Source: Vreelandella andesensis | GTDB lineage: Bacteria; Pseudomonadota; Gammaproteobacteria; Pseudomonadales; Halomonadaceae | Length of the DNA: 64,000 nucleotides | Direction: 5' to 3' | Assembly (NCBI RefSeq): GCF_003989795.1 | Contig: NZ_RZHG01000019.1 | Span: 186,145 to 250,144, forward strand | In this document: piece by piece, positions 1,563 to 36,238 of the stretch | Layout: each line of letters starts with the position of its first letter | Numbering within the stretch: position 1 is the stretch's first letter | Notes under the pieces: model-generated | The model's input: only the letters and a program-made list of their open reading frames with translations | What the model was told of the DNA's origin: nothing | Database searches by the model: none | Made by a program: the position numbers and the translations under genes

Positions 1563-1600
1563 GTTTGTTGGTTAAAACTTGGCTTGTTCGGTAATCCTTG
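1563..1600. repeat. Two 19-bp degenerate tandem copies next to the engB stop
   Basis: Copies at 1563-1581 and 1582-1600 agree at about 14 of 19 positions and end 2 bp before the engB stop codon. A weaker relative may precede them. This is one member of the set of short intergenic tandem arrays seen across the window. Confidence 0.5.
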
Positions 1601-1602
1601 GT

Positions 1603-3178: not shown

Positions 3179-3283
3179 CCGCTATAAATAAAGGTGCCCT
3201 ATCTCACTGGTAATTAAAGAGATGGGGAACCTCTATGCATGCGCAGCGGTCGTAGTTTTGCTTATTTTTGGAGAATTTTCGCT

Positions 3284-3916: not shown

Positions 3917-3918
3917 CG

Positions 3919-4752: not shown

Positions 4753-4855
4753 CAATAAGTTTGCCTAGCGGTTTACGGGCGCTGCATTGTCTGCGTATAT
4801 GCGCTATTGTCTGTTGCGCTGACTCCCCCTAGCCGTTTTTACGCGAGACACCACA

Positions 4856-5416
4856 ATGTCGGACACAACACAACTACCTGCGTTTATCGCTGCGCTGGAC
4901 CGCGCTTCGGAGTGGTTTGGGCGTAGCCTTGCGTGGCTGATCATCATCATGATGCTGATTCAGTTCGCGATTGTACTGCTTCGTTATGCTCTTAGCGTCA
5001 ACAGCATTTTTATGCAAGAGCTGGTGATGTACATGCATGCCAGTGTCTTTATGCTCGCTGCGGCCTATACCTTTCGTCATGATGGCCATGTGCGGGTCGA
5101 TATTTTCTATCGTGGAATGACACCCCGCCGCCAAGCGGTCGTTAATATCGCGGGTATTATCATGCTCTTGATTCCCGTGATGGTCTTTATTATTGCTTCC
5201 AGCTTGGGCTACGTTGCTAACTCCTGGCGTGTTATGGAGACCTCCCCAGACTACGGCGGCATTCCTGCCGTTTTTGCACTAAAAACGTTAATACCGCTTT
5301 TTGCCGCGCTAATGATTGTGCAAGGCGTTATTGAAGTGGTGCGCAACGGCTATGTATTTACTGGCCGGATATCCCCATCTGTTGCTGACGATAGCCACCT
5401 TGAGGAGCGCGTTTAA
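4856..5416 (+). CDS. TRAP transporter small membrane subunit (DctQ type)
   Basis: A 186-aa membrane protein with four hydrophobic helices, the normal architecture of DctQ subunits, which pair with the large DctM subunit in sodium-driven uptake. The mid-protein segment with FRHDGHVRVDIFYRG fits the conserved cytoplasmic loop of the family. The stop codon shares one base with the dctM start (TAATG), indicating translational coupling. Together with the next two genes it forms a complete TRAP system whose binding protein is TakP-like. Confidence 0.88.
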   Translation: MSDTTQLPAFIAALDRASEWFGRSLAWLIIIMMLIQFAIVLLRYALSVNSIFMQELVMYMHASVFMLAAAYTFRHDGHVRVDIFYRGMTPRRQAVVNIAGIIMLLIPVMVFIIASSLGYVANSWRVMETSPDYGGIPAVFALKTLIPLFAALMIVQGVIEVVRNGYVFTGRISPSVADDSHLEERV

Positions 5417-6819
5417 TGTTGGAATTTATGCCGCTTATTTTATTTGCCGTCATCTGTGTCGTACTGATGTTCGGTTTCCCTGTGGCGTTTTCATTAGCGG
5501 GCACCGCGCTGTTGTTTGCAGGGATGGGCCTGGGTCTTGAAGCTATCGGTATAGACGCCAATTTCGACAGTGGTTATCTTGCCGCGCTGCCCAATCGGCT
5601 TTACGGCATTATGACCAATCAAACGTTATTGGCGGTGCCTCTTTTTGTTTTGATGGGTGTTTTACTCGAGAAGTCTAAAGTAGCCGAAACACTGCTCGAT
5701 GCGATGGCGCTATTGTTTGGTGCTATGCGCGGTGGTTTAGGTATTTCAGTGACCTTGGTAGGTATGATGATGGCGGCATCTACCGGTATTGTAGGGGCCA
5801 CCGTGGTCACCATGGGTCTCATGTCGCTACCTACCATGCTAAAGCGCGGCTACAGCACCTCGCTTGCGACCGGCACTATTTGTGCAACCGGTACACTAGG
5901 CCAGATTATTCCACCCTCCATTGCGCTAGTACTGCTTGGCGATGTGCTGTCGTCCGCTTACCAGCAGGCGCAGCTCTCGATGGGCATTTTCAGTCCTAAA
6001 ACGGTCTCTGTGGGTGATTTGTTTATGGGCGCGTTAGTGCCAGGGCTGTTGCTGGTGGTTATGTATATGATTTACGTTGCCATGGTCGCGTGGTTGCGCC
6101 CGCAAATGGCGCCTGCAGCCAACCGTGAAGAGCTAATGGCAGAGCTTGGTCATACGTCGGGTCTTGGGTGGCTGCTGCTGAAGGGCCTCGTGCCACCTGT
6201 GGTGCTGATTGTCGCAGTGCTTGGCTCGATATTGGGCGGGTTTGCAACGCCCACGGAAGCGTCGGCGGTTGGCGCCTTTGGTGCCCTGGTGCTGGCCTTG
6301 GCTTATCGCCAGTTAGATTGGGCAACGCTGAAAGATGTGCTGCGTTCAACCACCCACGTGACCACCATGGTGTTTATGATTCTGATTGGTGCGGCGCTGT
6401 TTTCGTTGGTCTTCCGGGCCTACGGTGGCGAGCATATGGTCACTGACCTGTTCGAAGGTATGCCCGGCGGTGTGGTAGGTGCGACTATTATCGTGATGCT
6501 GGTTATTTTCCTGCTCGGCTTTATTCTCGACTTTATCGAAATCACCTTTGTGGTGGTGCCTATCGTGGGGCCGATTCTGCTGGCCATGGGGCTTGATCCG
6601 ATATGGTTGGGCATCATGATCGCTATTAACCTGCAAACTTCGTTCTTAACCCCACCGTTTGGCTTTGCGTTATTTTACTTGCGTGGCGTAGCGCCGCCCT
6701 CGGTGCCGACGTCGGCAATTTACCGTGGGGTCATACCATTTATTCTGATGCAGCTTGGGATGCTACTGATGCTAGCGTTTTACCCTCAACTGGCGACATG
6801 GCTACCTAGTCAATTTTGA
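5416..6819 (+). CDS. TRAP transporter large membrane subunit (DctM type)
   Basis: The 467-aa transport channel of the TRAP system, with about twelve hydrophobic helices and the family signature region LGQIIPPSIALVLLGD. It is longer than many DctM proteins because of an inserted loop around residues 190-205 (QQAQLSMGIFSPKT), which is usual for the extended DctM subunits that pair with TakP-like receptors. Energy would come from a sodium gradient, suited to a halophile. It overlaps the DctQ gene by 1 bp. A short tandem array lies over its stop codon. Confidence 0.9.
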   Translation: MLEFMPLILFAVICVVLMFGFPVAFSLAGTALLFAGMGLGLEAIGIDANFDSGYLAALPNRLYGIMTNQTLLAVPLFVLMGVLLEKSKVAETLLDAMALLFGAMRGGLGISVTLVGMMMAASTGIVGATVVTMGLMSLPTMLKRGYSTSLATGTICATGTLGQIIPPSIALVLLGDVLSSAYQQAQLSMGIFSPKTVSVGDLFMGALVPGLLLVVMYMIYVAMVAWLRPQMAPAANREELMAELGHTSGLGWLLLKGLVPPVVLIVAVLGSILGGFATPTEASAVGAFGALVLALAYRQLDWATLKDVLRSTTHVTTMVFMILIGAALFSLVFRAYGGEHMVTDLFEGMPGGVVGATIIVMLVIFLLGFILDFIEITFVVVPIVGPILLAMGLDPIWLGIMIAINLQTSFLTPPFGFALFYLRGVAPPSVPTSAIYRGVIPFILMQLGMLLMLAFYPQLATWLPSQF

Positions 6820-6854
6820 ACGACTCAATTTTAAATGGCTTAATTTTAGCCTGC
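6810..6854. repeat. Three 15-bp degenerate tandem copies over the dctM stop
   Basis: Copies at 6810-6824, 6825-6839 and 6840-6854 share the form TYAATTTTRAAYGGC. The dctM stop codon (6817-6819) is inside the first copy, so the array covers the end of the gene and the start of the spacer. Confidence 0.6.
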
Positions 6855-6973
6855 GTCGTTTTGATGGGAATTTCGATGAGCGCCGAGTTGAAAGCTATCG
6901 TTACTATCAACGCAACTAAGTGGCAACCTTACTTAAAAGCAGACAAGCTGATCTTACTAATGGCTTGCAACAA

Positions 6974-7000
6974 ACCGCCAAGCCAAAAAGGCTAGGCGGT
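6974..7000 (+). terminator. Hairpin between dctM and the TRAP receptor gene
   Basis: The arms ACCGCC-A-AGCC and GGCT-A-GGCGGT pair around an AAAAA loop. The following sequence is CTTCCTCCT, pyrimidine-rich but without a proper T-run. It may act as a weak terminator or as an mRNA-stabilising structure that sets a different dose for the binding protein relative to the membrane subunits. Confidence 0.45.
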
Positions 7001-7047
7001 CTTCCTCCTACCTATAACAGCAATAATAGAAGCAAGAGGGTTTATGT

Positions 7048-8157
7048 ATGAAAATTAAAGCACTCCCTGTCGCCATTGCGATGACGACCGCTTTATCCGC
7101 TAGCTTGCTGGTGGTTTCAAGTTTCGATAATCAGGCTCAAGCACAAGAAAACTTTCGCTGGAAAATGGTTACTTCCTGGCCTAAAAACTTCCCAGGCGTA
7201 GGGCAGGGGCCAGAGCGGCTCTCACAACTGGTGGAAGAAATGTCCGATGGCCGCCTGACCATCGAAGTGTTCGGTGCTGGCCAGTTAGTGCCTGGGTTTG
7301 AAGTGTTTGACGCCGTGTCTGATGGCACCGCTGAACTTGGCCACTCCGCTTCTTACTACTGGAAGGGTAAAGCGCCTGCTGCTCAGTTCTTCGCGGCCGT
7401 GCCGTTTGGCATGAATGCTCAAGAAATGAATGCATGGTTAAGCTATGGCGGAGGCATTGAGCTGTGGAATGAGCTTTACGATGATTTCGGTGTGGACGTG
7501 CTAGTAGCTGGGGCATCTGGTGTTCAAATGGGCGGCTGGTACAACAAGGAGATCAACTCGGTTGATGACCTTAATGGCTTAAAAATGCGCATGCCAGGTC
7601 TAGGCGGCGAAGTGATGAGTCGCATGGGCGTCGCCATTGTCAACATGCCAGGTGGTGAGATTTTCACCTCGTTGCAGTCGGGAGCAATTGACGCTACCGA
7701 ATGGATTGGTCCGTACAATGACTTAGCATTTGGTCTACACCAGGCAGCAGACTATTACTATTACCCAGGTTGGCATGAGCCGACGGTGATGTTCGAAGCA
7801 ATTGTCAATGAAGAGGCTCTAGCAGAACTGCCGGCAGACCTTCAGGCAATTCTACGCTCCGCTATTAGCGATATTAACCAAAGCGTATTGGACGAGTACA
7901 CAGCGCGTAATAATGATGCTCTTGAAACGCTGGTCAATGAGCACGAGGTTGAACTGCGTCGTATCCCCGACGATGTTTTAGCTCAGGCCCGCGAGCATTC
8001 CGCCGATGTTGTAGCCGAGTTGGCAGAATCCAGTGAGCTGGCAACGCGCATCTATGAATCGTACAAAGCATTCCAGGATAAAGTCGTAGATTACCATGCG
8101 ATTTCTGAGCAGGCATATTACAACGCCCGTAATCCAGATGGTGACACAACGCAGTAG
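7048..8157 (+). CDS. TRAP transporter solute receptor, TakP-like (2-oxo acid type)
   Basis: A 369-aa periplasmic binding protein with a signal peptide (residues 1 to about 32, ending NQAQA). It carries signatures of the TakP/SmoM subgroup: TSWPKNFPGVGQG at the mature start, GGWYNKEI, LKMRMPGLGGEVMSRMG, GGEIFTSLQSGAIDATEW and YYYYPGWHEP. TakP of Rhodobacter sphaeroides binds 2-oxo acids such as pyruvate with sodium. The substrate here is inferred from the subgroup. It lies 228 bp behind dctM, separated by the hairpin, and may have its own promoter. Confidence 0.88.
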   Translation: MKIKALPVAIAMTTALSASLLVVSSFDNQAQAQENFRWKMVTSWPKNFPGVGQGPERLSQLVEEMSDGRLTIEVFGAGQLVPGFEVFDAVSDGTAELGHSASYYWKGKAPAAQFFAAVPFGMNAQEMNAWLSYGGGIELWNELYDDFGVDVLVAGASGVQMGGWYNKEINSVDDLNGLKMRMPGLGGEVMSRMGVAIVNMPGGEIFTSLQSGAIDATEWIGPYNDLAFGLHQAADYYYYPGWHEPTVMFEAIVNEEALAELPADLQAILRSAISDINQSVLDEYTARNNDALETLVNEHEVELRRIPDDVLAQAREHSADVVAELAESSELATRIYESYKAFQDKVVDYHAISEQAYYNARNPDGDTTQ

Positions 8158-8185
8158 CGACTCAATAACGCAGTAACTATGCTGT
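8148..8185. repeat. Two 19-bp tandem copies over the stop of the TRAP receptor gene
   Basis: Copies at 8148-8166 and 8167-8185 both begin AACGCAGTA and agree at about 13 of 19 positions. The stop codon (8155-8157) is in the first copy. Confidence 0.5.
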
Positions 8186-8211
8186 AAGCATTCTGCGCTT
8201 GTTGAACACGC

Positions 8212-8240
8212 AATGGCCGCCTCCTAGGCGGCCATTGTTT
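8212..8240 (+). terminator. Rho-independent terminator after the TRAP operon
   Basis: A perfect 11-bp stem AATGGCCGCCT/AGGCGGCCATT around a CCT loop is followed by GTTT. It closes the dctQMP unit before thiD. Confidence 0.8.
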
Positions 8241-8313
8241 AGTTAAAATGCCTCTATTTAGCGCTGCATTTGGGTATTCTAGAGAGCTACTGAACCGTTA
8301 AGTAAGGAGCCCC

Positions 8314-9144
8314 ATGTCCAACAATTCCCGCCTTCGCAATGTACTCACCATTGCTGGTTCTGACCCCTCAGGTGGTGCTGGCTTGCAGGGTGATCTGAAA
8401 ACCTTTTCGGCGCTAGGTGTCTACGGCACCAATGTGATCACTGCGGTCATCGCCCAAAATACCTGTGGTGTCGCTTCCGTATACCCGGTTTCTCCTCAGG
8501 CTATTCGCGAGCAGCTAGCGCATCTGCTAGATGATGTGGCATTAGATGCGGTTAAAATTGGCATGGTTGCGAACCGCGAAGTTGCCGAAGTAATCGCTGA
8601 TGTATTGCGGAAAAATCGCCCTCGCTGGATCGTACTAGACCCAGTGATGGTAGCCAAAAGCGGTGATATTTTGGTCGATGATGCTGGCATTCGTGCCGTG
8701 CGCGATATATTGGTGCCATTAGCGGATGTCATTACCCCAAATTTGCCTGAAGCGGCTGTGCTCTTAGACGCCGAACCACCGGCTTCACTGGATGACATGG
8801 AGGCGATGCTGCCAGCGCTGGTTGAGCTGGGAGCACCTTACGTAGTTCTTAAAGGTGGTCACCTGCGTGGTGATACCTGCCCTGACTTATTGGCCACTCC
8901 AAACGGGCACGCATGGCTTCCTGCCTCGCGTATTGCCACTGATAACCTACACGGCACGGGCTGCGCACTTTCTTCGGCAATCACTGCGTGTCTGGCAAAA
9001 CTACCTGCCGATGCCGAGCCTAGTGCACCTAAGCAAGCGATTGGCGAAGCGAAGCTGTGGTTGCATGCCGCATTAGAAGCGAGCACTAGACTTAATGTCG
9101 GTCATGGGCGTGGGCCGGTGCACCACTTTCATGCGTGGTGGTGA
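8314..9144 (+). CDS. thiD: Hydroxymethylpyrimidine/phosphomethylpyrimidine kinase
   Basis: The 276-aa cytosolic kinase of thiamine synthesis that phosphorylates HMP and HMP-P to HMP-PP. Ribokinase-fold signatures are AGSDPSGGAGLQGDLKTF at the N-terminus (substrate site), VLKGGHLRGD in the middle and the anion-hole/catalytic motif DNLHGTGCALSSA near residue 208. AAGGAG stands five bases before the ATG. It stands alone here; thiS and thiG lie 16 kb away on the other strand. Confidence 0.93.
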   Translation: MSNNSRLRNVLTIAGSDPSGGAGLQGDLKTFSALGVYGTNVITAVIAQNTCGVASVYPVSPQAIREQLAHLLDDVALDAVKIGMVANREVAEVIADVLRKNRPRWIVLDPVMVAKSGDILVDDAGIRAVRDILVPLADVITPNLPEAAVLLDAEPPASLDDMEAMLPALVELGAPYVVLKGGHLRGDTCPDLLATPNGHAWLPASRIATDNLHGTGCALSSAITACLAKLPADAEPSAPKQAIGEAKLWLHAALEASTRLNVGHGRGPVHHFHAWW

Positions 9145-9301
9145 TGTAAATGACCCAGCGCAATAAGTGTGTAAAGTGGTTGTGGAAAAGGTAAGAGACA
9201 CCTTGCGGTATGCACAAACGAACACCATGCTGAACAATGCTTGTTTAGCTATTTAATGTGCCTACTGATGATGCCGATTCGATCGGCCAAGGAGTTGTGC
9301 C

Positions 9302-10147
9302 ATGTCTCGCACGCTGCTGTTCGCCACGGACCTATCTCAGGATAACCGCGCTGCGTTTGCTCGCGCGCTACGGCTGGCTTATGCCCAAGGGGCGCAGCTC
9401 GACATTCTTCATGTCCTTGACCCTTACTTGCCTCACCGTGTTCTTCACGACGTTGAAAGCGCGGTTAATGAAGACATCAGTACCACATTGACTGACCTGC
9501 GCGAAGATTACGCACTGGAAGCGCCTTCGCTGCTTATTCAAACCGTTGTGGGTGAGCCTCATGTTGAAATTGTTCGAGAAGCTCACGAACGCAATGCCTC
9601 GTTAATTATTTTGGGCATGCACCGTAAGCGCGGTCAGAAAGACCTCCTGTTGGGAACCACCGTGATGCGTGTGCTTAGAAGTGCCCCGTGCCCCGTGGTG
9701 GTAGCTTCTTATCTGCCGACGCAGCCCTGGCGACATATCCTAGTGCCGATCGATTTTTCGCTTACCGCCCGGCAAACCCTAAGAGAGGCACTTATACGCT
9801 TTCCAGAAGCAACGTTGACGCTATTGCATGCATGGAGCTTGCCCGGTGAGCGTGAGCTTGGCTCCCAAGCTAATTTTGCGCAGTGGCGAGATCATGAGGT
9901 AGAACGCTTACGCGGAACATTGGATAACGAGATTGAGAGTTTAATGCGTGATCTTGATGGCGTTCCTGATGTCGAGCTAGTTCTCGAACCGGGGCAACCT
10001 TGTGATGTGCTTCACGATTATATGAAGCGGCACTCTCCTGATTTGGTGATCATTGGTAGCCGGGGCCAGCCTCAACACACTAGCCAAGTGGCCGAAATGC
10101 TGTTGGGTGAGCCCCACTGTGATCTCATGCTGTGCCGCTCTTGGTAG
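9302..10147 (+). CDS. Tandem universal stress protein (two UspA domains)
   Basis: A 281-aa protein of two UspA domains, about residues 1-138 and 143-281. The first has the ATP-binding pattern GMHRKRGQKDLLLGTTV. The second has GSRGQPQHTSQVAEMLLGEP, a looser glycine motif, so nucleotide binding is most credible in the first domain. AAGGAG precedes the ATG. E. coli UspE has the same tandem architecture, but orthology is not claimed. Confidence 0.88.
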   Translation: MSRTLLFATDLSQDNRAAFARALRLAYAQGAQLDILHVLDPYLPHRVLHDVESAVNEDISTTLTDLREDYALEAPSLLIQTVVGEPHVEIVREAHERNASLIILGMHRKRGQKDLLLGTTVMRVLRSAPCPVVVASYLPTQPWRHILVPIDFSLTARQTLREALIRFPEATLTLLHAWSLPGERELGSQANFAQWRDHEVERLRGTLDNEIESLMRDLDGVPDVELVLEPGQPCDVLHDYMKRHSPDLVIIGSRGQPQHTSQVAEMLLGEPHCDLMLCRSW

Positions 10148-10220
10148 TTACTGTACGGAACCTTTATCTATGTTTTAAGTATGTATAACCGGTGTTTTGT
10201 GAAACGTGGAGATTTTCGCT

Positions 10221-10802
10221 ATGCCATCTGTCCTTAGACATTATTTAACCTTAGGCCTACTGCTGTCAGTCGTTATGCTTCTGTCGGCCCCTAACGCGCT
10301 GGCTGCCAGTGTGAATGAGCAGGGCGAGCGCTTCGAGCGCGTTGTGGAGGATGATGGTCAGCGCTATACATTGATAGGTAGTGGGGTCTTTCGCTACATG
10401 ATCTGGACTGCTTATGCAGGAGCCTACTATCAGCTTGAAGGAGAAACGGCACCACAGCCGTTAAGTAACGTCCCCCGTCGCCTTGAGCTCGCTTACTTTC
10501 ATAGCATTGAAGCTGCCGACTTTGCTGAAGCGACTGAGGAAACGCTGAAAAAGTCGCTGACACTTTATGAGTTTAACCAGATTGAAGAGGACCTTGAGCG
10601 GCTAAATCAGCGCTATCGCGATGTAGCGCCTGGCGACCGCTATCTGCTCAGTTGGGACGGGGAATGGCTGCGTCTTGCCCTTAACGGTGAGGTGGTATTT
10701 GAGGATGACAGCGCTGAGTTCGCCAGCGCCATGTTTGGTATTTGGTTGGGCGAGCGTCCGTTAGGCGACGATTTCCGTGATGCACTGTTGGGCAAAAACT
10801 GA
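10221..10802 (+). CDS. Chalcone-isomerase-like periplasmic protein
   Basis: A 193-aa exported protein with a signal peptide ending NALAAS. The mature part matches the bacterial chalcone isomerase-like domain: GSGVFRYMIWTAYAGAYYQ, then PRRLELAYFHSIEAADF, and a C-terminal LSWDGEWLRLALNG...FGIWLGERPL. Bacterial members are not thought to act on flavonoids and the role is unknown. The ATG at 10221 with GGAGATTTTCGCT is preferred over a GTG at 10206 that would lengthen the region before the signal peptide. The next gene is dtd, 73 bp on. Confidence 0.78.
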   Translation: MPSVLRHYLTLGLLLSVVMLLSAPNALAASVNEQGERFERVVEDDGQRYTLIGSGVFRYMIWTAYAGAYYQLEGETAPQPLSNVPRRLELAYFHSIEAADFAEATEETLKKSLTLYEFNQIEEDLERLNQRYRDVAPGDRYLLSWDGEWLRLALNGEVVFEDDSAEFASAMFGIWLGERPLGDDFRDALLGKN

Positions 10803-10875
10803 CCTAAACGTAAGTGTCTGAACGCTATCTCAGCGATTACACTGTCCTTTTGGATTTACATCGTAAGGGGCAAGC

Positions 10876-11313
10876 GTGAAGGCATTGATACAGCGGGTAA
10901 AAAACGCCAGCGTGACGGTTCAGGGTAACACCGTAGGGGCCATCGAGCATGGGCTGTTGGCGTTAGTGGGTGTTGAAAAAGGCGATAGCGAAGCCGATGC
11001 TGAAAAGCTATTGCATAAGCTGCTGCACTACCGAGTATTTAGCGATCATGAAGGTAAAATGAATAATAACCTGCAGCAGGCCGGCGGAGGTTTACTGTTG
11101 GTATCACAATTTACGTTGGCCGCCGATACCCGCAAAGGATTGCGCCCCAGCTTTTCTAGCGCGGCACCGCCCGACGAGGGCGAGCGTCTGTTTGACTATT
11201 TAGTCGTTAATGCAAACGCTCGCTGGTCTAACGTTGCAACCGGGCAATTTGGTGCTGATATGCAGGTGGCGTTGGTTAACGATGGGCCAGTAACGTTCCT
11301 GCTTGAAAGCTAA
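10876..11313 (+). CDS. dtd: D-aminoacyl-tRNA deacylase
   Basis: A 145-aa chirality-proofreading enzyme that hydrolyses D-aminoacyl-tRNA and Gly-tRNA(Ala). The active-site motif [17 protein letters not shown] and the C-terminal cross-subunit Gly-cisPro motif [11 protein letters not shown] are both intact. The start codon is GTG with TAAGGGG upstream. Length equals that of the E. coli enzyme. Confidence 0.95.
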
Positions 11314-11357
11314 CTCCCTAATTAACGCGGAATAATGTGCAGGCTGATCACATAGGG

Positions 11358-13304
11358 CTAGGCGTCCTCACTGGCCAGCAGCGCCGCTTCCATCGTTTCC
11401 AGTGCTTCCTCTGCTGCCAGCCACTGCTGTTCGGCATCGTTCAGACGGCTTTTAATGGTTGCTTGTTGAGCAAGCGCATCGGTTAGCTCTGCCTTGCGAG
11501 CACTGTCGGTATAAAGCGTCGGGTCAGCGAGAACAGCCTCTACTTCTTCAAGTGCTTGCTGGGCTTTCTCCATGGTTTTTTCAGCGTGATCGCGCTCTTT
11601 TTTCAGCGGTCGCAGTTTCTCGCGTAGTTCCGCCGCTGCCTTGCGAGCAGCTTTGCGGTCACCGCTGGGCGGTAGGCTTTGGCGTTCATTCTTTTCGCTA
11701 CGGGCGTCGCGGCGACTCTCTTCCAGACGCGCTTTTAGCCATACCCGATAGTCATCGAGATCGCCATCGAAGGGTTCCACACGGTGATCGGCAACCCGCC
11801 AGAACTCATCAACCGTGGCACGCAGTAAATGACGGTCGTGGGATACCAGAATGACCGTACCCTCAAAACTTGCTAGCGCTTCGGTTAGCGCCTCGCGCAT
11901 TTCCAAGTCCAAGTGGTTGGTTGGCTCATCAAGCAGCAGCAGGTTTGGTTTTTGCCAAGCGACCAGCGCCAGTGCCAAGCGCGCTTTTTCACCGCCAGAA
12001 TAGGTGGCAACTTCGCCAAAGGCGTCATCACCTTTAAAACCAAAGCCACCTAAGAAGTTGCGGATTTCCTGGTCACTTACCGTTGGAGAGAGCCGTTGTA
12101 CATGCATAAAGGGCGTTGTGGTTACGTCCAGGCTTTCTAATTGATGCTGAGCAAAATAGCCAATCGCTAAATGTTCACCTGGTACGCGTTTGCCCTCTAG
12201 CAGCGCAAGCTCGCCAGTCAATGATTTGATCAGCGTTGATTTGCCCGCGCCGTTGGGGCCTAACAGGCCGATACGGCTGCCGGGTAACAGGGTAACGTTG
12301 ACCTTCTCTAGCTGAGCAACATCGCCCGCTTTGCTGCGATAGCCAAGGGTGGCTTGGTCTAGCACGAGCAGCGGGTGTGAGGTCTTATCGGCAGCGGGAA
12401 AAGTGAAGTGAAAGGGTGAGTCCGTGTGAGCGATGGCGATATCACCCATACGCTCCAGCATTTTTACACGGCTTTGCGCTTGCTTTGCTTTTGTTGCCTG
12501 GGCGCGAAAGCGCGTAATAAAACGCTCAATCTCTTCGCGCCGGGCCTGCTGTTTAGCCGCTTCGGCTTGCTGTAGAGCGAGCTTCTCTGCTCGCGTTCGC
12601 TCAAAGCGGGAGTAGTTGCCGCGATAAAGCTCGAGCGTTTGGTGGTGCATATGCACAATGTGATCGCACACAGCGTCCAAAAAGTCACGGTCATGCGAAA
12701 TCAGCAGCAGCGTGCCTGGGTAGCGGGTCAGCCACTGTTCTAGCCAAAGCAGGGCGTCAAGATCTAAGTGGTTGGTTGGCTCATCAAGCAACAGCAGGTC
12801 AGACGGCATAAATAGTGTGCGGGCCAAATTCACCCGCATACGCCAGCCACCGGAAAAGTCCGACAGGGGCCGCTCAAGGTCCGCTTGCACGAAGCCGAGT
12901 CCCACTAATAGCTGCGCCGCCCGTGATTCGGCTGTATAGCCATCCAGCGTTTCGATAAGGCCATGTAATTCGGCTTCCCGATGCGGATTATCTGTTTTGC
13001 GAGCGGCCAGAAGATCTGCTTCCGCTTGCCGCAGCGCATGATCGCCATCCAGCACATACTCCACAATAGGGCGATCTAGTGCGTCAACTTCTTGGGCCAT
13101 GTGGGCGATTCGTTGGCCACCGCTCATCTCAACGTCGCCTTGGTCGGGGCCGAGCTCACCTAGCAAGAGTTTGAATAAGCTCGACTTACCGGCGCCGTTT
13201 GCCCCGATAATGCCAGCCTTTATGCCGCTGTGGAGCGTAAGGTCAGCGTTATCGAGTAGCGTTTGTGTACCCCGTTGCAGGGCGACTTGGCGCAGTGCGA
13301 TCAT
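11358..13304 (-). CDS. ABC-F family ATPase, YheS-like
   Basis: A 648-aa soluble protein with two ABC domains and no membrane segments, the ABC-F plan of ribosome-associated ATPases. Walker A motifs are GANGAGKSS and GPNGAGKST, signatures FSGGWRMR and YSGGEKARL, and both Walker B/H-loop units read DEPTNHLDL. The N-terminus and the charged C-terminal coiled-coil region (residues 530-640) fit the YheS subgroup. It is divergent from the TIGR02444 gene with starts 28 bp apart, an arrangement also seen in Pseudomonas. Confidence 0.9.
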   Translation of the reverse strand: MIALRQVALQRGTQTLLDNADLTLHSGIKAGIIGANGAGKSSLFKLLLGELGPDQGDVEMSGGQRIAHMAQEVDALDRPIVEYVLDGDHALRQAEADLLAARKTDNPHREAELHGLIETLDGYTAESRAAQLLVGLGFVQADLERPLSDFSGGWRMRVNLARTLFMPSDLLLLDEPTNHLDLDALLWLEQWLTRYPGTLLLISHDRDFLDAVCDHIVHMHHQTLELYRGNYSRFERTRAEKLALQQAEAAKQQARREEIERFITRFRAQATKAKQAQSRVKMLERMGDIAIAHTDSPFHFTFPAADKTSHPLLVLDQATLGYRSKAGDVAQLEKVNVTLLPGSRIGLLGPNGAGKSTLIKSLTGELALLEGKRVPGEHLAIGYFAQHQLESLDVTTTPFMHVQRLSPTVSDQEIRNFLGGFGFKGDDAFGEVATYSGGEKARLALALVAWQKPNLLLLDEPTNHLDLEMREALTEALASFEGTVILVSHDRHLLRATVDEFWRVADHRVEPFDGDLDDYRVWLKARLEESRRDARSEKNERQSLPPSGDRKAARKAAAELREKLRPLKKERDHAEKTMEKAQQALEEVEAVLADPTLYTDSARKAELTDALAQQATIKSRLNDAEQQWLAAEEALETMEAALLASEDA

Positions 13305-28578: not shown

Positions 28579-29547
28579 ATGCATAATTTCCAACACCTGG
28601 AAGGCTTGTTTCGGCAAGCAGCAGGCGAATCCTCGCTCTCCCGACTTAGGCCGGGCGATGCGCTAACGGACGCCGTGCATGACTATTTTCGCCACTATGG
28701 TTTAGAAACGCTATTAAACGACACCAGCGAGGTGCACGCGGGATTTATTGATACTGGACGCTTTGCCCTTTGGTGCCAAGTATGGAGCCCACCTGTCCCT
28801 ACTGGTACCGCGTTTGTGATTCACGGCTACTTTGATCATCTAGGCCTTTACCGTCATTTGCTCGGTTGCCTGCTGGCCAAAGGGTGGCGAGTGGTATTGT
28901 GGGACCTTCCTGGCCACGGTCTTTCCAGCGGCCCGCGGGCTGAAATTGAAGATTTTGACGACTACCAGCACTGCCTTGCGCACTTGCAGGCGACATTGCA
29001 AATTAAGAGGATGGCACCAAAGCCGTGGCTAGGCGTGGGGCAGAGCACCGGGGCCGCCATATTAGCGACCGACGCACTGACCCGCCGTGAAGCGGCAGGC
29101 TGGGCCGCTATTGTGCTACTGGCGCCGTTGGTGCGCCCCTGGCGCTGGAGTCAATCCAGTTGGCTGCACCTTATTGCCAGCCCGTTTCTAAAAGACCTGC
29201 CAAGAAAGTATCGCCCCAACTCCACCGATGAGCAGTTTACGATGTTTCTGCGCGACCAAGACCCACTTCAACCGGAACGGTTAAGTGTTATGTGGATTAC
29301 CGCCATGCGACGCTGGATGCCGCGTTTACTGGCGCTGGCCCCCAACCCGTTGCCTACGCTTATTTTGCAGGGCGAACAGGACTTAACCGTCGATTGGGAG
29401 TGGAACCTGATGGTATTAAAAGAGAAGTTCCCCAATGCCGAGATCCTCCGCCACCCAGAAGCCCGCCACCACTTAGTTAATGAAGCCGAGCCGATACGCC
29501 AAGTGCTCTTCGATGCGTTAGATAACTTTGTTGAAAATGTTCACTAG
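28579..29547 (+). CDS. Alpha/beta hydrolase, lysophospholipase-like
   Basis: A 322-aa soluble hydrolase of the PldB/monoacylglycerol-lipase type. It shows the oxyanion region FVIHGYFDHLGLYRHL, WDLPGHGLSSGPRAEI, the nucleophile elbow GVGQSTGAA (Ser in GxSxG), an acid Asp in LQGEQDLTVDW and the His in PEARHHLVNEAEP. No signal peptide is seen. It is convergent with the 3' part of comM; the stops overlap by 4 bp (CTAG). Confidence 0.82.
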   Translation: MHNFQHLEGLFRQAAGESSLSRLRPGDALTDAVHDYFRHYGLETLLNDTSEVHAGFIDTGRFALWCQVWSPPVPTGTAFVIHGYFDHLGLYRHLLGCLLAKGWRVVLWDLPGHGLSSGPRAEIEDFDDYQHCLAHLQATLQIKRMAPKPWLGVGQSTGAAILATDALTRREAAGWAAIVLLAPLVRPWRWSQSSWLHLIASPFLKDLPRKYRPNSTDEQFTMFLRDQDPLQPERLSVMWITAMRRWMPRLLALAPNPLPTLILQGEQDLTVDWEWNLMVLKEKFPNAEILRHPEARHHLVNEAEPIRQVLFDALDNFVENVH

Positions 29548-30418
29548 GCTCCCCTCAGCAACCTATCCAACTGTCGGTAGCCGATGGCTTCGATAAAGTG
29601 CGGTTGGGTGGGCTTGGGTTCGCCTTGCAGGTCGGCCAGGGTGAGCGCGACTCGCAGGACGCGGTGGTAGGCGCGGGCAGAGAGTTTAAGCTTTTCTAAT
29701 ACGCCTGCTAACCAAGCGCGTTCATCATCATTCAGCGCGCAGGCGGCTTCCAGGGCCTTGCCGCTGAGTTGACTGTTGAGTGCGCCCCGCGACATCTGCC
29801 GCTCTCGGGCGGCCATCACCCGCTCGCGTACTGCACTGGAAGGTTCACCCTGGGTTTGGGCGGTGAGCTGTTCAGGCGGCAAGGCGGGCACTTCTACCTG
29901 TAGGTCAATGCGGTCTAGCAGCGGGCCAGAAAGCCGTGCTTGATAGCGCTGGATTTGGCTGGCACTGCATTGGCAGCGCTGGCGCGGGTCGCCCAGGTGA
30001 CCACAGGGGCAGGGGTTCATGGCAGCAACGAGCTGGAACTGCGCTGGGTAGCGGCGCTCATGGTTAGCGCGTGAGAGGTGAATCTCCCCCGTTTCCAGTG
30101 GCTGCCGTAAAACTTCTAATACGTTGCGGGAAAACTCTGGCAGCTCATCTAGAAACAGTGCGCCGTGGTGAGCCAGCGAGATTTCCCCTGGTTTGGGTTT
30201 TGAGCCCCCGCCCACCAGTGCGGCGGCGCTGGCGCTATGGTGGGGCTGACGAAACGGCCGCTGGCCCCAGTCTGCTTCTAGGGGTAGCCCACATACCGAG
30301 CGTACAGCGGCCACTTGCAGTGCATCCTCTTCGGAAAGCGGCGGCAAAATGCCAGGCAAGCGGCTAGCGAGCATGGTTTTACCGGTGCCAGGAGGTCCAG
30401 CTAACAGCAAATTGTGGC
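29544..30418 (-). pseudogene. comM: comM (yifB), 3' part, cut off by the integrative element
   Basis: About 290 residues forming the C-terminal part of the ComM/YifB AAA+ branch-migration helicase, which helps integrate DNA in natural transformation. It begins at HNLLLAGPPGTGKTMLA, so Walker A is intact. Next come LFLDELPEFSRNVLEVLRQP (Walker B), NPCPCGHLGDPRQRC and SGPLLDRIDLQVEVP (sensor/Arg region). The N-terminal part lies 5.2 kb away at 35582-36238. Fusing the two gives about 502 residues, the normal family length. The first Met read in this frame is a TTG and is not a start. Confidence 0.95.
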
Positions 30419-30432
30419 TATTTAAACCCCAT
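30402..30432. other. Left junction (att site) of the comM element
   Basis: Contains TAACAGCAAATTGTGGC (30402-30418), a 15/17 match to the right junction copy at 35588-35604, followed after 2 bp by the inner arm TTTAAACCCCAT (30421-30432). The arm is the exact inverted repeat of ATGGGGTTTAAA at 35567-35578. Together they are read as half of attP joined to half of attB. Confidence 0.85.
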
Positions 30433-30499
30433 ATATTATAGAGCTAATCCTGGATTTGAGTTTTGGCAGCAATTTGATGATGAAGATGAAGTCTTATAA
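30431..30499 (+). pseudogene. Possible C-terminal gene remnant at the element's left end
   Basis: Reading plus-strand codons from 30431 gives ...RANPGFEFWQQFDDEDEVL then TAA at 30497-30499, which looks like a real acidic C-terminus. Upstream the frame runs into the att site and comM and has no start codon. In the circular form it is closed about 13 codons further back. It may be the tail of a gene lost when the element formed. Confidence 0.25.
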
Positions 30500-30585
30500 A
30501 GGGTTATTTATAGATAAATGCCAATGAATAATTAATTTTTTTGAGAAATTTCATTGATTTTTAATGATGTTGGGAAAATTGGATG

Positions 30586-31584
30586 TCACTTTAAATATAT
30601 AGTTTCGAATCTTATATTCTTTAGAGGAGCTTTGTCTTGAGCCTTAGCGTCTTTAAAAAAAACAATTTGACTGTAACGTAATTTATCTTTCTTTGCTTTT
30701 ACTTCTGATAAAACTATATCGTTGTCGCTGAGGTACAGCACGTCAGGTAAGCCACCATTTAAGTTCGAGAGATAAATCGCTAAGTCTTTAGTCGTTTGTG
30801 CCCCAATCGAATTTATTAGTGTTTTTGTATTATGTTTCTCTTTGTTGTCATATTTTAGTGAGTTGCTCTCTAGAAGGTAGTTGAGATTATACATAAAATC
30901 TTTATGGCTTACTGTGCTGATTCCTTCATAAAATATATCTTTAGCTTTTTTTTGTTTTTGTATAGTGTACTCTTCTTGGTTCATGTTTGAAGGCAATAGC
31001 GATCTTGATATAACTGAATGATATATGTCGCCAAAAAGATATAACTTGTACGATTGGTTACCGCACATTTTTTCTATATTTGTAATTTGGCTTATCAAAT
31101 CACTAGATAGAAATTTATCTTCCATAGCTAATATATATGCACCTATTATATTTGAACTAAAGTTGCCCTCTTCTTTAACGGCAATCTTACCTTCTTTTCT
31201 TAGTCGTTCAATAAAAAAAAGATCTGAGCTACCGCTATTGAAATTACAATCGATAGTTTTAATCGGTATGCCAATCCGATTACACTGTTCTTCTAGCGGG
31301 AAAAAGCTTAATGTTTTTGAAGCACCTGCTTCAGAGAGATTTCCTCCATTCTTAAAGTATTCAAATGGCTGAAGTTTTTCTAAAAGAAGGTCGTCTGTCT
31401 TAATAGAGGTCATTCCTTTGAGCAAGGCTATAAGCGGAGTTATTACCTCGATAGGTGGTTTGTAGTTAGCATAAAAGTCAATAATTAAGTTCCGATAATT
31501 GCCGCCGGTTGAACCAAATAGGAGGCCTATGTCAGGCTCGTCACCAAGAAAAAATCTATCTAATTCATATTTATATCTACTCAT
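30586..31584 (-). CDS. Putative nuclease with C-terminal VRR-NUC-like motif (element cargo)
   Basis: A 332-aa protein not recognised over its first 270 residues. The C-terminus from about residue 277 reads GGLPDVLYLSDNDIV, LSEVKAKKDKLR and YSQIVFFK, the pattern of VRR-NUC/PD-(D/E)XK nucleases. The metal-site Asp is 281, Glu294-Val-Lys296 is the ExK motif and Gln306 is the conserved Gln. The N-terminal region is helix-rich and has no signal or membrane segment. The gene has a good GGAG site, is AT-rich like the rest of the element and is its only clear cargo. A role in defence or DNA processing is inference. Confidence 0.6.
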   Translation of the reverse strand: MSRYKYELDRFFLGDEPDIGLLFGSTGGNYRNLIIDFYANYKPPIEVITPLIALLKGMTSIKTDDLLLEKLQPFEYFKNGGNLSEAGASKTLSFFPLEEQCNRIGIPIKTIDCNFNSGSSDLFFIERLRKEGKIAVKEEGNFSSNIIGAYILAMEDKFLSSDLISQITNIEKMCGNQSYKLYLFGDIYHSVISRSLLPSNMNQEEYTIQKQKKAKDIFYEGISTVSHKDFMYNLNYLLESNSLKYDNKEKHNTKTLINSIGAQTTKDLAIYLSNLNGGLPDVLYLSDNDIVLSEVKAKKDKLRYSQIVFFKDAKAQDKAPLKNIRFETIYLK

Positions 31585-32107
31585 GAGAAGTACTCCAACG
31601 GAATGAAAGCATTAAGGCTACATTTTTAAAGAATGGCAGTGAAATTAACCTGACATCAAGTTATCAACAGTTATATCTAAATCATCCTATAGAGAAAAAA
31701 TTTGCTTAGCCAAGTGAAAGTCTTCTGGTGATGCGGTTGTAGAATCCTCAGATGAAACCTTTCTTTTGAGAGGCGGGCGGTTGCCATCTATGAGTACCTA
31801 TCTGAGTCGCTATATATTGAGCTGAAAGGTACTGAGAGAGGTACCCTATAAACGTGGCTTACACGGCCTTATTTAACAGCGTACAACCAAGGGAATCAAA
31901 CTAAACGACTCTAGCCCTATGTACCCTACTGGGTAGTCTCTGCTTTTCATTTTTACGTGCTGGCGCTAGGGGAATACTGAAGCTGATGAAGGTATACCTC
32001 AAGAAGACCAGTTAAAGATGCCTAGAAGCCACTTTAATTCTATTGACAGACCACCCATAACAGACTTTAATAACGAAACCACTTAAAACAGACTAAGGCT
32101 ACTCGTG
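31585..32107. other. Non-coding stretch between nuclease and resolvase genes
   Basis: 523 bp without a convincing gene. It holds a small palindrome TACCC-TACT-GGGTA (about 31921-31934) and TTACACGGCCT at 31859-31869, repeated exactly at 32807-32817 on the other side of the resolvase gene. These may be resolvase binding sites (res-like). Divergent promoters for the two genes must lie here. Confidence 0.35.
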
Positions 32108-32743
32108 ATGACTATCGTTAGAGCTTACCTACGCGCCAGCACTACTGACCAAGACGCTAATAGAGCAAAGCGCCAGCTTCAAGATTTTGCTGAACAACAT
32201 GGTTTTGCTATAGCGACCTATTACAGCGAGAACGCTTCAGGCTCTACGTTGGAGCGCCCTGAGCTTATGCGACTACTATCGGAAGCTGGCGCTGGCGATA
32301 TTCTACTTGTTGAGCAAATAGACCGATTAGCACGCTTGAACCAAGATGATTGGCAACAGCTTAAGCAGCTAATTAACGCGAAAGGCTTAAAAATCGTTTC
32401 TCCTGAGCTTCCAACTTCTCATGCTCTACTGAATGAGTCTCAAGGTTTCACCAGTGCCGTTATGCAGGCGGTAAATGGTATGCTTTTGGATCTATTAGCA
32501 GCTACAGCAAGAAAAGACTACGAAGATAGACGACGTAGACAAGTTCAAGGTATCGAGAAAGCAAAGCAGTTAGGCAAGTTCAAAGGTCGCCAAGAAGATA
32601 CCAAAAAACAGAATGCAGTTAAGGCAATGCTTAAAAGCGGTCATTCGTATAACGAAATTATAGAATCTGTCTCATGTAGTCGTGCTTTGGTTGCAAAAGT
32701 CTCAAAGAAGATCAAGGAAGATCAAAATAGTGTCGCTACTTAA
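32108..32743 (+). CDS. Small serine recombinase (resolvase/invertase family)
   Basis: A 211-aa resolvase-type recombinase. The catalytic domain starts IVRAYLRASTTDQD with the nucleophile Ser in RAST. LLVEQIDRLARLNQDDW contains the active-site Arg residues, and the long E-helix ends DLLAATARKDYEDRRRRQVQGI. The C-terminal 40 residues (GHSYNEIIESVSCSRALVAKVSK) form a Hin-like HTH. The ATG at 32108 follows an in-frame GTG. It may resolve multimers of the circular element or invert a segment. A hairpin with T-run lies about 140 bp downstream. Confidence 0.88.
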   Translation: MTIVRAYLRASTTDQDANRAKRQLQDFAEQHGFAIATYYSENASGSTLERPELMRLLSEAGAGDILLVEQIDRLARLNQDDWQQLKQLINAKGLKIVSPELPTSHALLNESQGFTSAVMQAVNGMLLDLLAATARKDYEDRRRRQVQGIEKAKQLGKFKGRQEDTKKQNAVKAMLKSGHSYNEIIESVSCSRALVAKVSKKIKEDQNSVAT

Positions 32744-32885
32744 GAGGGTTTAAGAGCTTTTGTTGGATACCCTCTAGGTAGGTATAGGGTGCCCCATTAA
32801 AATTGATTACACGGCCTCTATGACGGCATTAGAAGGTCTTTTAGATAGCTTTCTAAGTGGCCTCAAAAAAAGTGTTAAACACTAG

Positions 32886-32914
32886 CCCCCTACAAAACCC
32901 TGGGGGGTATTTTT
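32886..32914 (+). terminator. Hairpin with T-run after the resolvase gene
   Basis: CCCCC (32886-32890) pairs with the G-run at 32902-32907 around an 11-nt loop and is followed by TATTTTT. Likely terminator of the resolvase transcript, though the stem is short. Confidence 0.5.
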
Positions 32915-33224
32915 CCTAAATCCATCAACCGTTGCATTACAAGGCTTACATTGGGATAAACACCTCTCTCGCTATAGGCTGGTTTAGGTTAAGCTATTGT
33001 AAATTTAACACTAACCATAAGAACTATAAGTCAATGCAATAAGAACCAATAGTAATCTCATAGCGAATGATATTTATTCTCAAAAAAGCTTGCAGCCCCC
33101 ATATGATTGTGATTAACATTCATTATGAATTGGTGGGGCAGTAGCTACAACGCTATGGATTGAGCCAATTAAAATAAGTCAATCCAAACGCTGGGAACCT
33201 CAAAGCATCAAGTGCTTAAGTGAC

Positions 33225-33289
33225 CAAGTGTTATTCCTACTCTCCTACATAAAAAATATGTTGTGGGGGGTAGGGGGGCATAACACTTG
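33225..33289. repeat. Long imperfect hairpin with two G6 tracts
   Basis: Base CAAGTGTTAT/ATAACACTTG, inner pairing CCTAC/GTAGG and a tip TACAT-AAAAAAT-ATGT form a stem of about 65 nt. The 3' side reads GGGGGGTAGGGGGGC. Possible roles are an origin, a processing signal, or a bound site for the HTH protein encoded 166 bp downstream. Confidence 0.45.
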
Positions 33290-33454
33290 AGTTTCCTAAA
33301 GCATCAAATTAGACACCTCTTAATAACAACTTTAGTTTATCCTTAGTAGCTTTAGATATAAATCAATATAGAAATAACATAATTGGTTTGTATTTTAGTA
33401 TACTAATGATTTTCTCTGGTTTTTTTATGTATTCAAATCTCAGGAGTTATTCAG

Positions 33455-33730
33455 ATGAAAAAGCGTTCAGATGGTAAGAAAACCAATGCACGAAAAGACG
33501 CTAAGTTAGTATCAACGGTGAAAACATTGGTTGAATCCGGGCTTCCACCCAGGATGATTGCATTAGTATTCGATATTCGAGAATCAACAATTAGTCAGTA
33601 TCGAACAAATGATCGACAAGCAGATGTAGTTCCGTTGTCATTAGCTGAAGCTAGGAAGAATCTTATCGAGCACATTGATGCAGCATTTGAAAGCCAGTTA
33701 GATTCTCATGTAGGAGACCAAGCAGCGTAA
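33455..33730 (+). CDS. Small basic HTH-like protein of the element
   Basis: A 91-aa protein with a Lys/Arg-rich start (MKKRSDGKKTNARKDAK). A probable helix-turn-helix follows at about residues 20-50 (VKTLVESGLPPRMIALVFDIRESTISQYR), then an acidic C-terminal tail. CAGGAG is correctly placed before the ATG. The family is not recognised. A role as recombination directionality factor or repressor of the element would fit its size and its place between the resolvase and the integrase. Confidence 0.55.
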   Translation: MKKRSDGKKTNARKDAKLVSTVKTLVESGLPPRMIALVFDIRESTISQYRTNDRQADVVPLSLAEARKNLIEHIDAAFESQLDSHVGDQAA

Positions 33731-33778
33731 AAGCCTTAGCCTCATCAAGATACCCCATTGAAAATAAAAGCCTTCTTT

Positions 33779-35554
33779 CTAATCATCGATTTCAGAACCA
33801 GAAAAGTCTTTAATCATTCCTAGTGAAATAAGCCTTTTATAGACTTCTTCGGATTCTTTATCTCTTGGGCTTCCTGACAAAATATTTTCAATGCTTTCTT
33901 TAATTCTTAAAATTGAAACTCCAATTAACTGACCTTCAGATGAGCCTTGCCAGATACGATGTTGACCATGTTTTATTATATGGAAGTCAATTGATTCATA
34001 GTCTTCGTTATGATGAAAGTGAATGGTTAGTAAATGGTCGTACATTTCAATTTCTGATATGTATTTTTTGAAGAAAAAGTTTAGTTGTTCCCTTAGCTCT
34101 TTACTCTTAATTTTAGCTTCGATTGTGTCAGCAGCATCATAGCACAATACTTCAGTAATAATGCCTACAGCTACTTCATTTGCTTTTAGTGCAGTCTCTT
34201 GTAGATCTTCAATTTGTAGTAATGACTCTTCTTCATTATCTATTGATTTTAGAGTTGCTTCCCTTTCTCCTTCTTTTTGAGTTATGGAGGCCAGGATTGT
34301 ACTAGGCGGGTTGTCGGTGCTTGCTATAATGTTCGTAAACCTAGTTAAGCTGATCTCAATTTCTTCTAAAGTTCCCCTTAGAGTCTCAATGCGTGCTTGC
34401 GTTGAGGCTCTTTTTTTTTGAATATTGCTTTGCTCTGGAACTAGCTCCATATAGTTAAGATTAGACAGCAAGCCTAATAGTGATTCTTCAGCGGCTAAGT
34501 AAGGCATAGATATAGCATCGCATTTACCGCCCGATCGAGACATTGAGCATCTAAGGTAAGTGCCTCCTTTTGGTTTAGAACCTTTGTTTATATAGTGTAC
34601 TGGTGAACCGCAGTAGCCACATTTTATTATACCTTTAAACAGATTACTAAAGCGCTCTCCACTTCGCCCTCTTGTTTTTGGCCTTAATTTTTTTGATTTT
34701 GCTGAATAGAATTTTTCTTTCGTTATAGCTGCTGGATAGAATTCTTCTATAGGATCGCCATCTTCTTCATAAATGTACTTGTTGTTATTCTCATTCCAGA
34801 CACCTTTTTTTGGCTGCATGGCTCCATAGGTTGATTTGTTGTTAAGTATTTTTTTGATGTAACTTGTATGCCAAAAATCGCTTCTGCCAAAAGTTGGAGT
34901 TTCTGTATTGTTTAAGTGTCTTGTTATGCTTGATGCGCCTGATCCTTTTTCAGACATTTCGAATATTTCTTGTATTACTCTTGCTCTTTCTTCAATAAGT
35001 TCATATTTATCGTATGTTTTCTTGATCCAAGCAGGACACATTGCTGTGTAAGGCTTCTTGCTTTTCTGTGCTTCATCTCTTTTGTTTTTCCAAACTTGTT
35101 TTATCCTTTCAGCTTTTGTCTTTGATTCTTCGTGAGCACGACTCATAACCATCAAAGAGCCAAAAAGTTCCATTGCTATAGTTTCTGAATTTTCTCGATA
35201 AATCTGGCCATCGGTAAGTGTTGCTATATTAACGCCTTTGTTAATTATTCCTAGAAAATGAGTTAATGCTAGATTAGGTTTTTCTCTACTTAGGCGGTCA
35301 AGCGACTCTACAATCAGGTAAGACCCTTTTTCAATTTTTCCCGCGTCAATTGCCTTTATGAATTCACCTAATGCCCCTTCGGAAGCATTTTCCCCTCTGT
35401 AGCCTGAGACACCCAAGTCAGAGTAGCCAGTCTCAACAAGCTCTAGGCCGTGTTTCTTGGCGAACTCTTGAGCGCCAACGGTCTGCCTTCTGAGGCTGTC
35501 ACCGCTGGCCTGAGCTTTGCTGCTGAATCGTATGTAGCTGTACGCCTTTGTCAT
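33779..35554 (-). CDS. Large serine recombinase (integrase) of the comM element
   Basis: A 591-aa site-specific integrase. The N-terminal catalytic domain begins KAYSYIRFSSKAQASGDS with the nucleophile Ser in FSS; VESLDRLSRE is also catalytic. The recombinase domain (about 170-270) has GASSITRHLNNTETPTFG and IKKILNNKSTYGAM. A zinc ribbon has Cys pairs in KCGYCGSP and RCSMSRSGGKC. A coiled-coil follows, as usual. The ATG at 35554 is preferred to a TTG two codons earlier. It sits 13 bp from the attP arm and is read in the same direction as comM, 27 nt after the truncated comM stop, so host transcription may drive it. Confidence 0.93.
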   Translation of the reverse strand: MTKAYSYIRFSSKAQASGDSLRRQTVGAQEFAKKHGLELVETGYSDLGVSGYRGENASEGALGEFIKAIDAGKIEKGSYLIVESLDRLSREKPNLALTHFLGIINKGVNIATLTDGQIYRENSETIAMELFGSLMVMSRAHEESKTKAERIKQVWKNKRDEAQKSKKPYTAMCPAWIKKTYDKYELIEERARVIQEIFEMSEKGSGASSITRHLNNTETPTFGRSDFWHTSYIKKILNNKSTYGAMQPKKGVWNENNNKYIYEEDGDPIEEFYPAAITKEKFYSAKSKKLRPKTRGRSGERFSNLFKGIIKCGYCGSPVHYINKGSKPKGGTYLRCSMSRSGGKCDAISMPYLAAEESLLGLLSNLNYMELVPEQSNIQKKRASTQARIETLRGTLEEIEISLTRFTNIIASTDNPPSTILASITQKEGEREATLKSIDNEEESLLQIEDLQETALKANEVAVGIITEVLCYDAADTIEAKIKSKELREQLNFFFKKYISEIEMYDHLLTIHFHHNEDYESIDFHIIKHGQHRIWQGSSEGQLIGVSILRIKESIENILSGSPRDKESEEVYKRLISLGMIKDFSGSEIDD

Positions 35555-35566
35555 GCTCAATTTCTC

Positions 35567-35604
35567 ATGGGGTTTAAACGGCTATAATAGCAGCAAATTA
35601 TGGC
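35567..35604. other. Right junction (att site) of the comM element
   Basis: Arm ATGGGGTTTAAA (35567-35578), 9-bp spacer, then TAGCAGCAAATTATGGC (35588-35604), the second copy of the 17-bp imperfect direct repeat. The nine central bases CAGCAAATT are identical at both ends. Confidence 0.85.
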
Positions 35605-36238
35605 CACCTGCGGCCGCCACTTCCAGCGCGCGGCGAGCCTGCTGCTGGCCGCGCACATCAGCTAAATCGGCAACGGGTGCTGTGGATCTCACCGAGGCAG
35701 ACAGTTGATGAGGCGGTATTTTCTCTTGCCCCAGCAAATGAGCGACGACCTGCCACAGGGTGTCGGCGGGTAACACCGGTAAATCGCCTGCCAGCGCCGC
35801 TTCATCGGCGCAGGCGCGAGGAATAATCAGCGCCTTATTGGCACGCCGTGTAGCTAATGCAAAGGGGAGCACGCCGGGCACGGCGCGTAGTTTGCCATCT
35901 AGCGCCAGCTCACCGGCGCACTCCATGCCCTCTAGCGCATCCACGGGAATCTGGCCGGAGGCGGCGAGAATGCCGAGCGCAATCGGTAAATCAAAACGAC
36001 CGCCCTCTTTGGGTAGGTCGGCGGGAGCAAGGTTGAGGGTAATTCGTTTGGTGTTGGGAAAGTCAAACCCTGCATTGATGAGCGCGCTACGCACCCGCTC
36101 GCGGCTCTCTTTGACAGCGGTTTCCGGCAGCCCCACCAGCGTAAGCCCCGGTAACCCGTTGGCTAAATGAACCTCTACGTGAACCGCCGGTGCCTCTAAG
36201 CCAACGCCTGCACGTGTGGCCACAATGGCTAATGTCAT
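35582..36238 (-). pseudogene. comM: comM (yifB), 5' part, ended by the element
   Basis: The N-terminal 218 codons of ComM, with the ChlI/Lon-like domain: MTLAIVATRAGVGLEAP, LPGLTLVGLPETAVKESRERV, TLNLAPADLPKEGG and ADVRGQQQARRALEVAAAGG. It reads into the element after GGHNLL and meets TAG at 35582-35584. The product lacks Walker A and the AAA+ core and should be inactive. Natural transformation, if the strain has it, would be impaired. Confidence 0.95.

Follow-up and report, generated by a model that had tools for sequence, protein, structure and literature searches.

The comM gene of Vreelandella andesensis contained in the 64,000-nucleotide stretch analyzed here (positions 186,145 to 250,144 of contig NZ_RZHG01000019.1, hereafter referred to as the window) is located on the minus strand and is interrupted by an element of 5,186 bp, whose junctions lie at positions 30405 and 35591, just upstream of the sequence specifying the Walker A motif. 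It is very probable that this region represents a 5.2-kb integrative element with its own large serine recombinase (LSR), the attP of which recombined with an attB in comM at the CT of the Leu216 codon. The DNA itself demonstrates the insertion, the hybrid nature of its junctions, and the truncation of ComM, while the LSR is believed to be the agent acting at the CT dinucleotide. The interruption of comM by a serine-integrase element, which had been proposed in a preceding sequence-only reading, was substantiated by the domain content of the LSR, the anatomy of the att sites, the empty sites of relatives, and a crossover point which recurs among genomes.

The core sequence CAGCAAATT is found at both 30405 to 30413 and 35591 to 35599, thus defining the element length, and its two copies lie within a direct repeat which matches at 15 of 17 positions. 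The 3′ part of comM (positions 29544 to 30413, minus strand) starts with this shared core, encodes ComM from Asn214 onwards, including the Walker A sequence GPPGTGKT, and matches Pfam Mg_chelatase (E value of 1.6e-84) and TIGR00368. The 5′ part (positions 35591 to 36238, minus strand), comprising codons 1 to 216, inclusive of the core, as judged from the joined frame, matches Pfam ChlI (E value of 5.8e-44), and its reading frame continues into the element as far as a stop codon at 35582. Joining of the flanks at CAGCAAATT produces an uninterrupted 502-amino-acid (aa) ComM frame containing GGHNLLLAGPPGTGKT, to which residues 209 to 502 of the 3′ part match at 99%, the joined protein containing the same sequence. 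The restored frame shares up to 98% identity with the intact ComM proteins of genus relatives in alignments spanning the joint. Similarly, in a comparison of 30 intact loci, five of which were misaligned by the script, as many as 111 bases of the rebuilt 120-bp empty site were identical to those of intact comM, and relatives were found to carry the predicted empty site rather than a different comM sequence at the joint. The GC content of the element (37.7%) is distinct from that of comM (61 to 62%).

The left junction (positions 30405 to 30432) consists of the core followed by an inverted arm, TTTAAACCCCAT, at 30421 to 30432, while the right junction (positions 35567 to 35599) consists of the corresponding arm, ATGGGGTTTAAA, at 35567 to 35578, and the second copy of the core; the occurrences at 30421 and 35567 are the sole ones of these arms in the window. 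When the element ends are joined, a 52-bp near-palindrome is formed in which 18 of 26 pairs match and whose central AG (CT in the comM sense) falls within the core. The near-palindrome, its center, and the imperfect repeat described above had been reported in the earlier reading and were confirmed. When window sequence was joined at random 200,000 times, only 7 of the joins reached 18 of 26 pairs within 4 bp of the joint. The arrangement is typical of LSR att sites, as it comprises an attP with imperfect inverted arms, a short core common to attB, and an integrase gene adjoining attP. Furthermore, CT is present at both element ends, such that a 2-bp overlap is identical in attP and attB, and it corresponds to positions 1 and 2 of the Leu216 codon in GGHNL[L]LAGPPGTGKT. 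We propose that the LSR of the element recombined attP with the comM-located attB through strand exchange at this 2-bp CT just upstream of the Walker A motif, and that excision, requiring a directionality factor, would restore comM exactly.

The LSR gene (positions 33779 to 35554, minus strand) specifies 591 aa from an ATG at 35554, with an alternative TTG start at 35560, and its 5′ end adjoins the 5′ part of comM. Its product combines Resolvase, Recombinase, and Zn_ribbon_recom domains in one chain, in accordance with the domain organization and approximate length (500 to 600 aa) of LSRs, the Ser/Arg and Cys columns are invariant in the alignment of its relatives, and it represents the single LSR match in its own genome. 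The sole solved chain matched by its sequence at an E value of ≤0.001 is the resolvase homolog YokA (PDB 9dxh), the SP-beta integrase, which is a distant match (E value of 5e-8 over residues 175 to 368). Recombinases of Escherichia coli phages annotated as YbcK are about 34% identical to the LSR across 59% of its length and, unlike the latter, are phage borne.

All 82 genus genomes examined contain comM matches, and in 22 of these the gene is split at one of four positions. The position used in the window, site A (codon ~210 to 218), is broken in three genomes (G000, G199, and G269), whereas the commonest break in the genus, site B (codon ~283), is found in 15 genomes, including G269; site C (codon ~322) is used in G198, G238, G247, and G261, and site E (codon ~340) in G217, for which the 5′ part was not found. 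In a 23rd genome (G264), only a fragment beyond site B was seen, and comM is partial or frameshifted in five further genomes (G212, G222, G230, G236, and G266). In G269, comM is broken both at the LSR site and at site B, and G016 seems to be doubly broken in the same manner, its fragment ending at residue 283 (the junction was not read). Across the 275 family genomes, LSR matches (E value of ≤1e-40) were obtained in 14, every one of which lies beside a comM break, i.e., nine at site A and five at site C. The possibility that a transposon-like serine recombinase of the TndX/IS607 type landed in comM by chance, to which a weak IS607 match of the small serine recombinase of the element (far under the cut-off) might lend some support, is highly improbable in view of these 14 comM-located matches and of the recurrence of the same codon as a break point in dozens of genomes; such target fidelity disfavors a transposon of loose target choice. 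Two further loci (L063 and L064) harbor an intact comM plus a partial second copy of its 5′ region approximately 1 to 3.5 kb upstream, which is possibly the scar of a past insertion.

To view the LSR in a wider context, an alignment-based search of the named genome collection was performed, scans with the single LSR sequence as a query having produced no matches. It retrieved 230 relatives, of which the best 80 were kept; since most of the sequences in the query alignment were comM-inserted LSRs, the survey is biased towards comM. Among these best 80 of 230 loci, 48 show a site-A break of comM inside the stretch that was fetched; in L087 and L096, the comM fragment is located at the opposite end of the element and not beside the LSR. 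The 48 loci belong to alpha-, beta-, and gammaproteobacteria, one Desulfobacula record, and one uncultured delta record. Eight loci (L066, L068, L072, L074, L079, L091, L095, and L135) are sited at codon ~35 of comM, as judged from fragments of about 35 residues, and three LSRs follow the 5′ part of comEC at a conserved RTGxxHLxxI-like motif, an assignment based on Pfam Competence (E value of 5.4e-5) and DUF4131 for L093, on DUF4131 and the motif by eye for L133, and on the motif by eye only for L100. The remaining 21 loci are elsewhere or unassigned, including L120, whose LSR is identical to that of L119, which is at site A. Four of these 21 loci, belonging to a Mariprofundus-type subclade (L073, L083, L084, and L112), appear by eye to be sited in a histidine kinase H-box-like sequence, GGIAHDF. 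PAS domains were found in L083, which, with L112, represents two copies on one contig of Mariprofundus ferrooxydans PV-1, where only these two read as H-box.

The exact crossover point was assessed using 27 of 56 site-A elements, for which both ends could be read under a strict pattern; in the other 29, the second end was missing or the pattern was unmatched, although L045 and L104 nonetheless show both ends. The two ends carry the same base at the first position of codon 216 in 25 of the 27 elements (19 C-C and 6 T-T; 2 are unlike), with a Fisher p value of 1.6e-4; this value ignores kinship and is optimistic, given that the six T-T elements include four related members of the family. As every end has T for its second base, this position is uninformative, and positions -8, -6, -5, and -2, being almost invariant (23 to 25 of 27 with one pair type), likewise provide little information. 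At the other, variable neighbors, end-to-end agreement is lower (15 of 27 at -7, 18 at -4, 16 at -3, 20 at -1, and 14 at +2), which suggests that strand exchange takes place at the YT of the Leu216 codon. Similarly, the best attP palindrome is centered on the codon 216 dinucleotide in the window and in seven of the eight other family site-A elements, and both attP halves often appear, by eye, to share a similar inner motif (e.g., CACAAC), one side of which is supplied by comM itself. The dinucleotide at this codon in the 30 intact relatives is CT (15), TT (10), or AT (5), the last corresponding to Ile codons (ATA or ATT) in L024, L027, L029, L041, and L043, and elements with CT or TT would be expected to be blocked by an Ile codon at position 216.

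Several observations weigh against this interpretation. L102 and L142 carry a different dinucleotide at their two ends, the best palindrome of L046 is centered elsewhere, and the palindromes of the relatives are weaker (26 of 48 to 34 of 52 letters) than that of the window, the only one covered by the chance test. The same boundary does recur in other genomes, contrary to the possibility, raised at the outset, that it would never be found again, but it is always carried by a clearly different LSR (about 31 to 45% identical). A search for a second genome with the window element found none, and its boundaries consequently rest on these distant relatives. The nearest LSR relative shows 72% identity across 60% of the query, and on the tree the window LSR forms a long, unplaced branch. 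Finally, no excision factor was recognized among the genes of the element. This last result also bears on the idea that the insertion acts as a regulatory switch, in which excision under competence conditions restores comM, much as regulated excision of Listeria phage A118 from comK reportedly operates. The frame is indeed precisely restorable, and comEC- and dprA-family genes of the host are present as open frames; given that an excision factor was not found and that loss of ComM may simply be tolerated or favored, we regard such a switch as improbable. Returning to the integrative element as proposed above, use of this site is presumably attributable to its conservation combined with tolerated loss of the gene. 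ComM acts in natural transformation, and its loss may, hypothetically, also protect the island from removal by this process.

Elements at site A are found in either orientation. The window LSR reads with comM, whereas the LSR of each of the other eight family site-A elements reads against it, and the 56 site-A elements comprise 17 in the same and 39 in the opposite orientation. A minimum of 10 orientation changes was obtained on a quick tree of 94 rows, 20 of whose 90 inner branches are open, and from which L125 (the same record as L045) and L111 (with an LSR of 172 aa) were excluded. The LSRs of L090 and L094 are 85% identical and lie in opposite orientations within bodies that are collinear over two matching stretches; at site C, the same is true of the orientations of L053 and L055 (LSRs 88% identical). 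When read in the LSR sense, L094 has the dinucleotide CT where L090 has AG, and L055 has GA where L053 has TC. These data are consistent with orientation being set by the central dinucleotide, as the title of Ghosh 2003 states, and we infer that a switch of dinucleotide may cause the flip. Because the target dictates the dinucleotide in the comM sense, the association follows from the opposite orientation and does not constitute proof of cause. The outer att arms of L053 and L055 travel with the element body, and a movement of the gene relative to attP as the sole cause of their opposite orientation is apparently not needed. Overall att identity does not decide the matter, since attP is nearly symmetric: L053 and L055 share 49 of 85 letters in the LSR sense and 48 in the comM sense, and the L090/L094 pair points in the opposite direction (47 versus 57).

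Besides the LSR, the element carries three open reading frames (ORFs). A small serine recombinase of the resolvase/invertase type (212 aa; positions 32105 to 32743, plus strand) matches Pfam Resolvase (E value of 9.6e-22), HTH_7, and a PHROG DNA invertase (E value of 7.4e-42), and has matches in 49 of the 275 family genomes, its own included (E value of ≤1e-40). Its gene is flanked by a 30-nucleotide direct repeat (positions 31840 to 31869 and 32788 to 32817; 77% alike), the copies of which possibly represent sites of this recombinase but could be due to chance. An orphan cargo ORF of 332 aa (positions 30586 to 31584, minus strand) shows a weak VRR_NUC match in its C-terminal part (E value of 1.7e-4; 22.1 bits, under the curated Pfam cut-off of 23.8), lacks a PHROGs match, and was found in its own genome only, among the 275 of the family (E value of ≤1e-5). 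The third, an ORF of 91 aa (positions 33455 to 33730, plus strand), matches no Pfam, NCBIfam, or PHROGs family and might encode a regulator or an excision factor. PADLOC returned no match for the four element proteins.

This gene content is relevant to the view that the element is a decayed prophage or phage satellite, of which the integrase is the only surviving phage part. The LSR matches a PHROGs integrase family (E value of 7.3e-72), its relatives are present in phages (17 records, at <60% identity) and in 21 viral contigs, in none of which comM was seen, and L057, a comM element at another site, encodes an inovirus-like Zot-domain protein. On the other hand, no phage structural or packaging family was detected among the four element ORFs (Pfam, NCBIfam, and PHROGs), and six of the eight other family site-A elements are equally small (3.7 to 4.8 kb), the two larger ones carrying restriction-modification genes. 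A phage origin of this kind is, therefore, considered unlikely, although less so than the switch or transposon scenarios.

The other occupants of comM differ in their cargo, which includes a type II restriction-modification system with Vsr (L045), a C5 methylase with an Eco29kI-like endonuclease (L047), a C5 methylase (L054), and a HerA-like protein (L060). The Zot-domain (inovirus assembly-like) protein of L057 is encoded at positions 4944 to 6347 in the site-C element of G261, and a filamentous phage-like element may thus also use comM. Relaxases are present in the site-C elements L053 and L055, unlike the window element, for which no relaxase match was obtained (Pfam and NCBIfam). Site B of L059 (positions 1333 to 13182) is occupied by a 12-kb Tn7-like element with matches to TnsA, TniA-like, TniB, and TniQ proteins, TGTCATTTTC ends, and, by eye, a 5-bp target duplication, GCGGC. 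The TGTCATTTTC end motif was detected in 15 of 20 further junction stretches (L181, L185 to L188, and L190 to L199), being absent from L182, L183, L184, L189, and L200, and such Tn7-like ends at codon ~283 were checked by end motif in 11 genomes (G267 and 10 more). These elements, which are presumably of the AbaR/Tn6022 type, share their target gene with the window element but differ from it by their TnsA/TniA/TniB/TniQ genes, their ends, and their position in comM, bearing out the earlier suggestion that the latter constitutes a separate case. A Tn7-like or AbaR identity for the window element was ruled out, as TniA, TniB, and TniQ had no match among its four ORFs (Pfam and NCBIfam).

The earlier reading had also hinted at novelty, a notion which does not hold for the insertion type. 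According to passages of Durrant 2022 (PMC10083194), homologs of the Mg-chelatase/ATP-dependent protease are enriched LSR targets, accounting for 12.4% of predicted site-specific LSRs, and competence genes are strongly enriched among LSR targets; insertion of an LSR element into a gene of this kind is, therefore, already known. The window element, being inserted inside the Mg-chelatase-like comM, shares the target gene type and recombinase class of those elements. The codon-level site, the orientation reversals, and the presence of several sites per gene are given here and do not appear in those passages of Durrant 2022 (PMC10083194). What is added is that the crossover point of comM insertion is narrowed, as far as can be predicted from sequence, to a single codon.

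Taken together, we tentatively propose, at somewhat less than even confidence, that comM represents a landing gene used in common by different elements, with no fewer than four LSR sites in addition to a Tn7-like one, and that at the main site the crossover falls on a degenerate Leu codon, such that codon 216 variants of the host would decide which element enters and in which orientation. A silent change could then render the host resistant, and elements would answer by switching their dinucleotide, thereby flipping. The junctions provide a natural, many-genome map of LSR crossover in a coding gene, in which the overlap dinucleotide is visible in a degenerate codon, and the analysis furnishes a collection of compact serine integrases together with their predicted attB/attP pairs. 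Two testable ideas arise: that the dinucleotide alone determines orientation in nature, and that competence genes (comM at several sites, and comEC) accumulate mobile elements since their disruption would stop removal of the elements by transformation.

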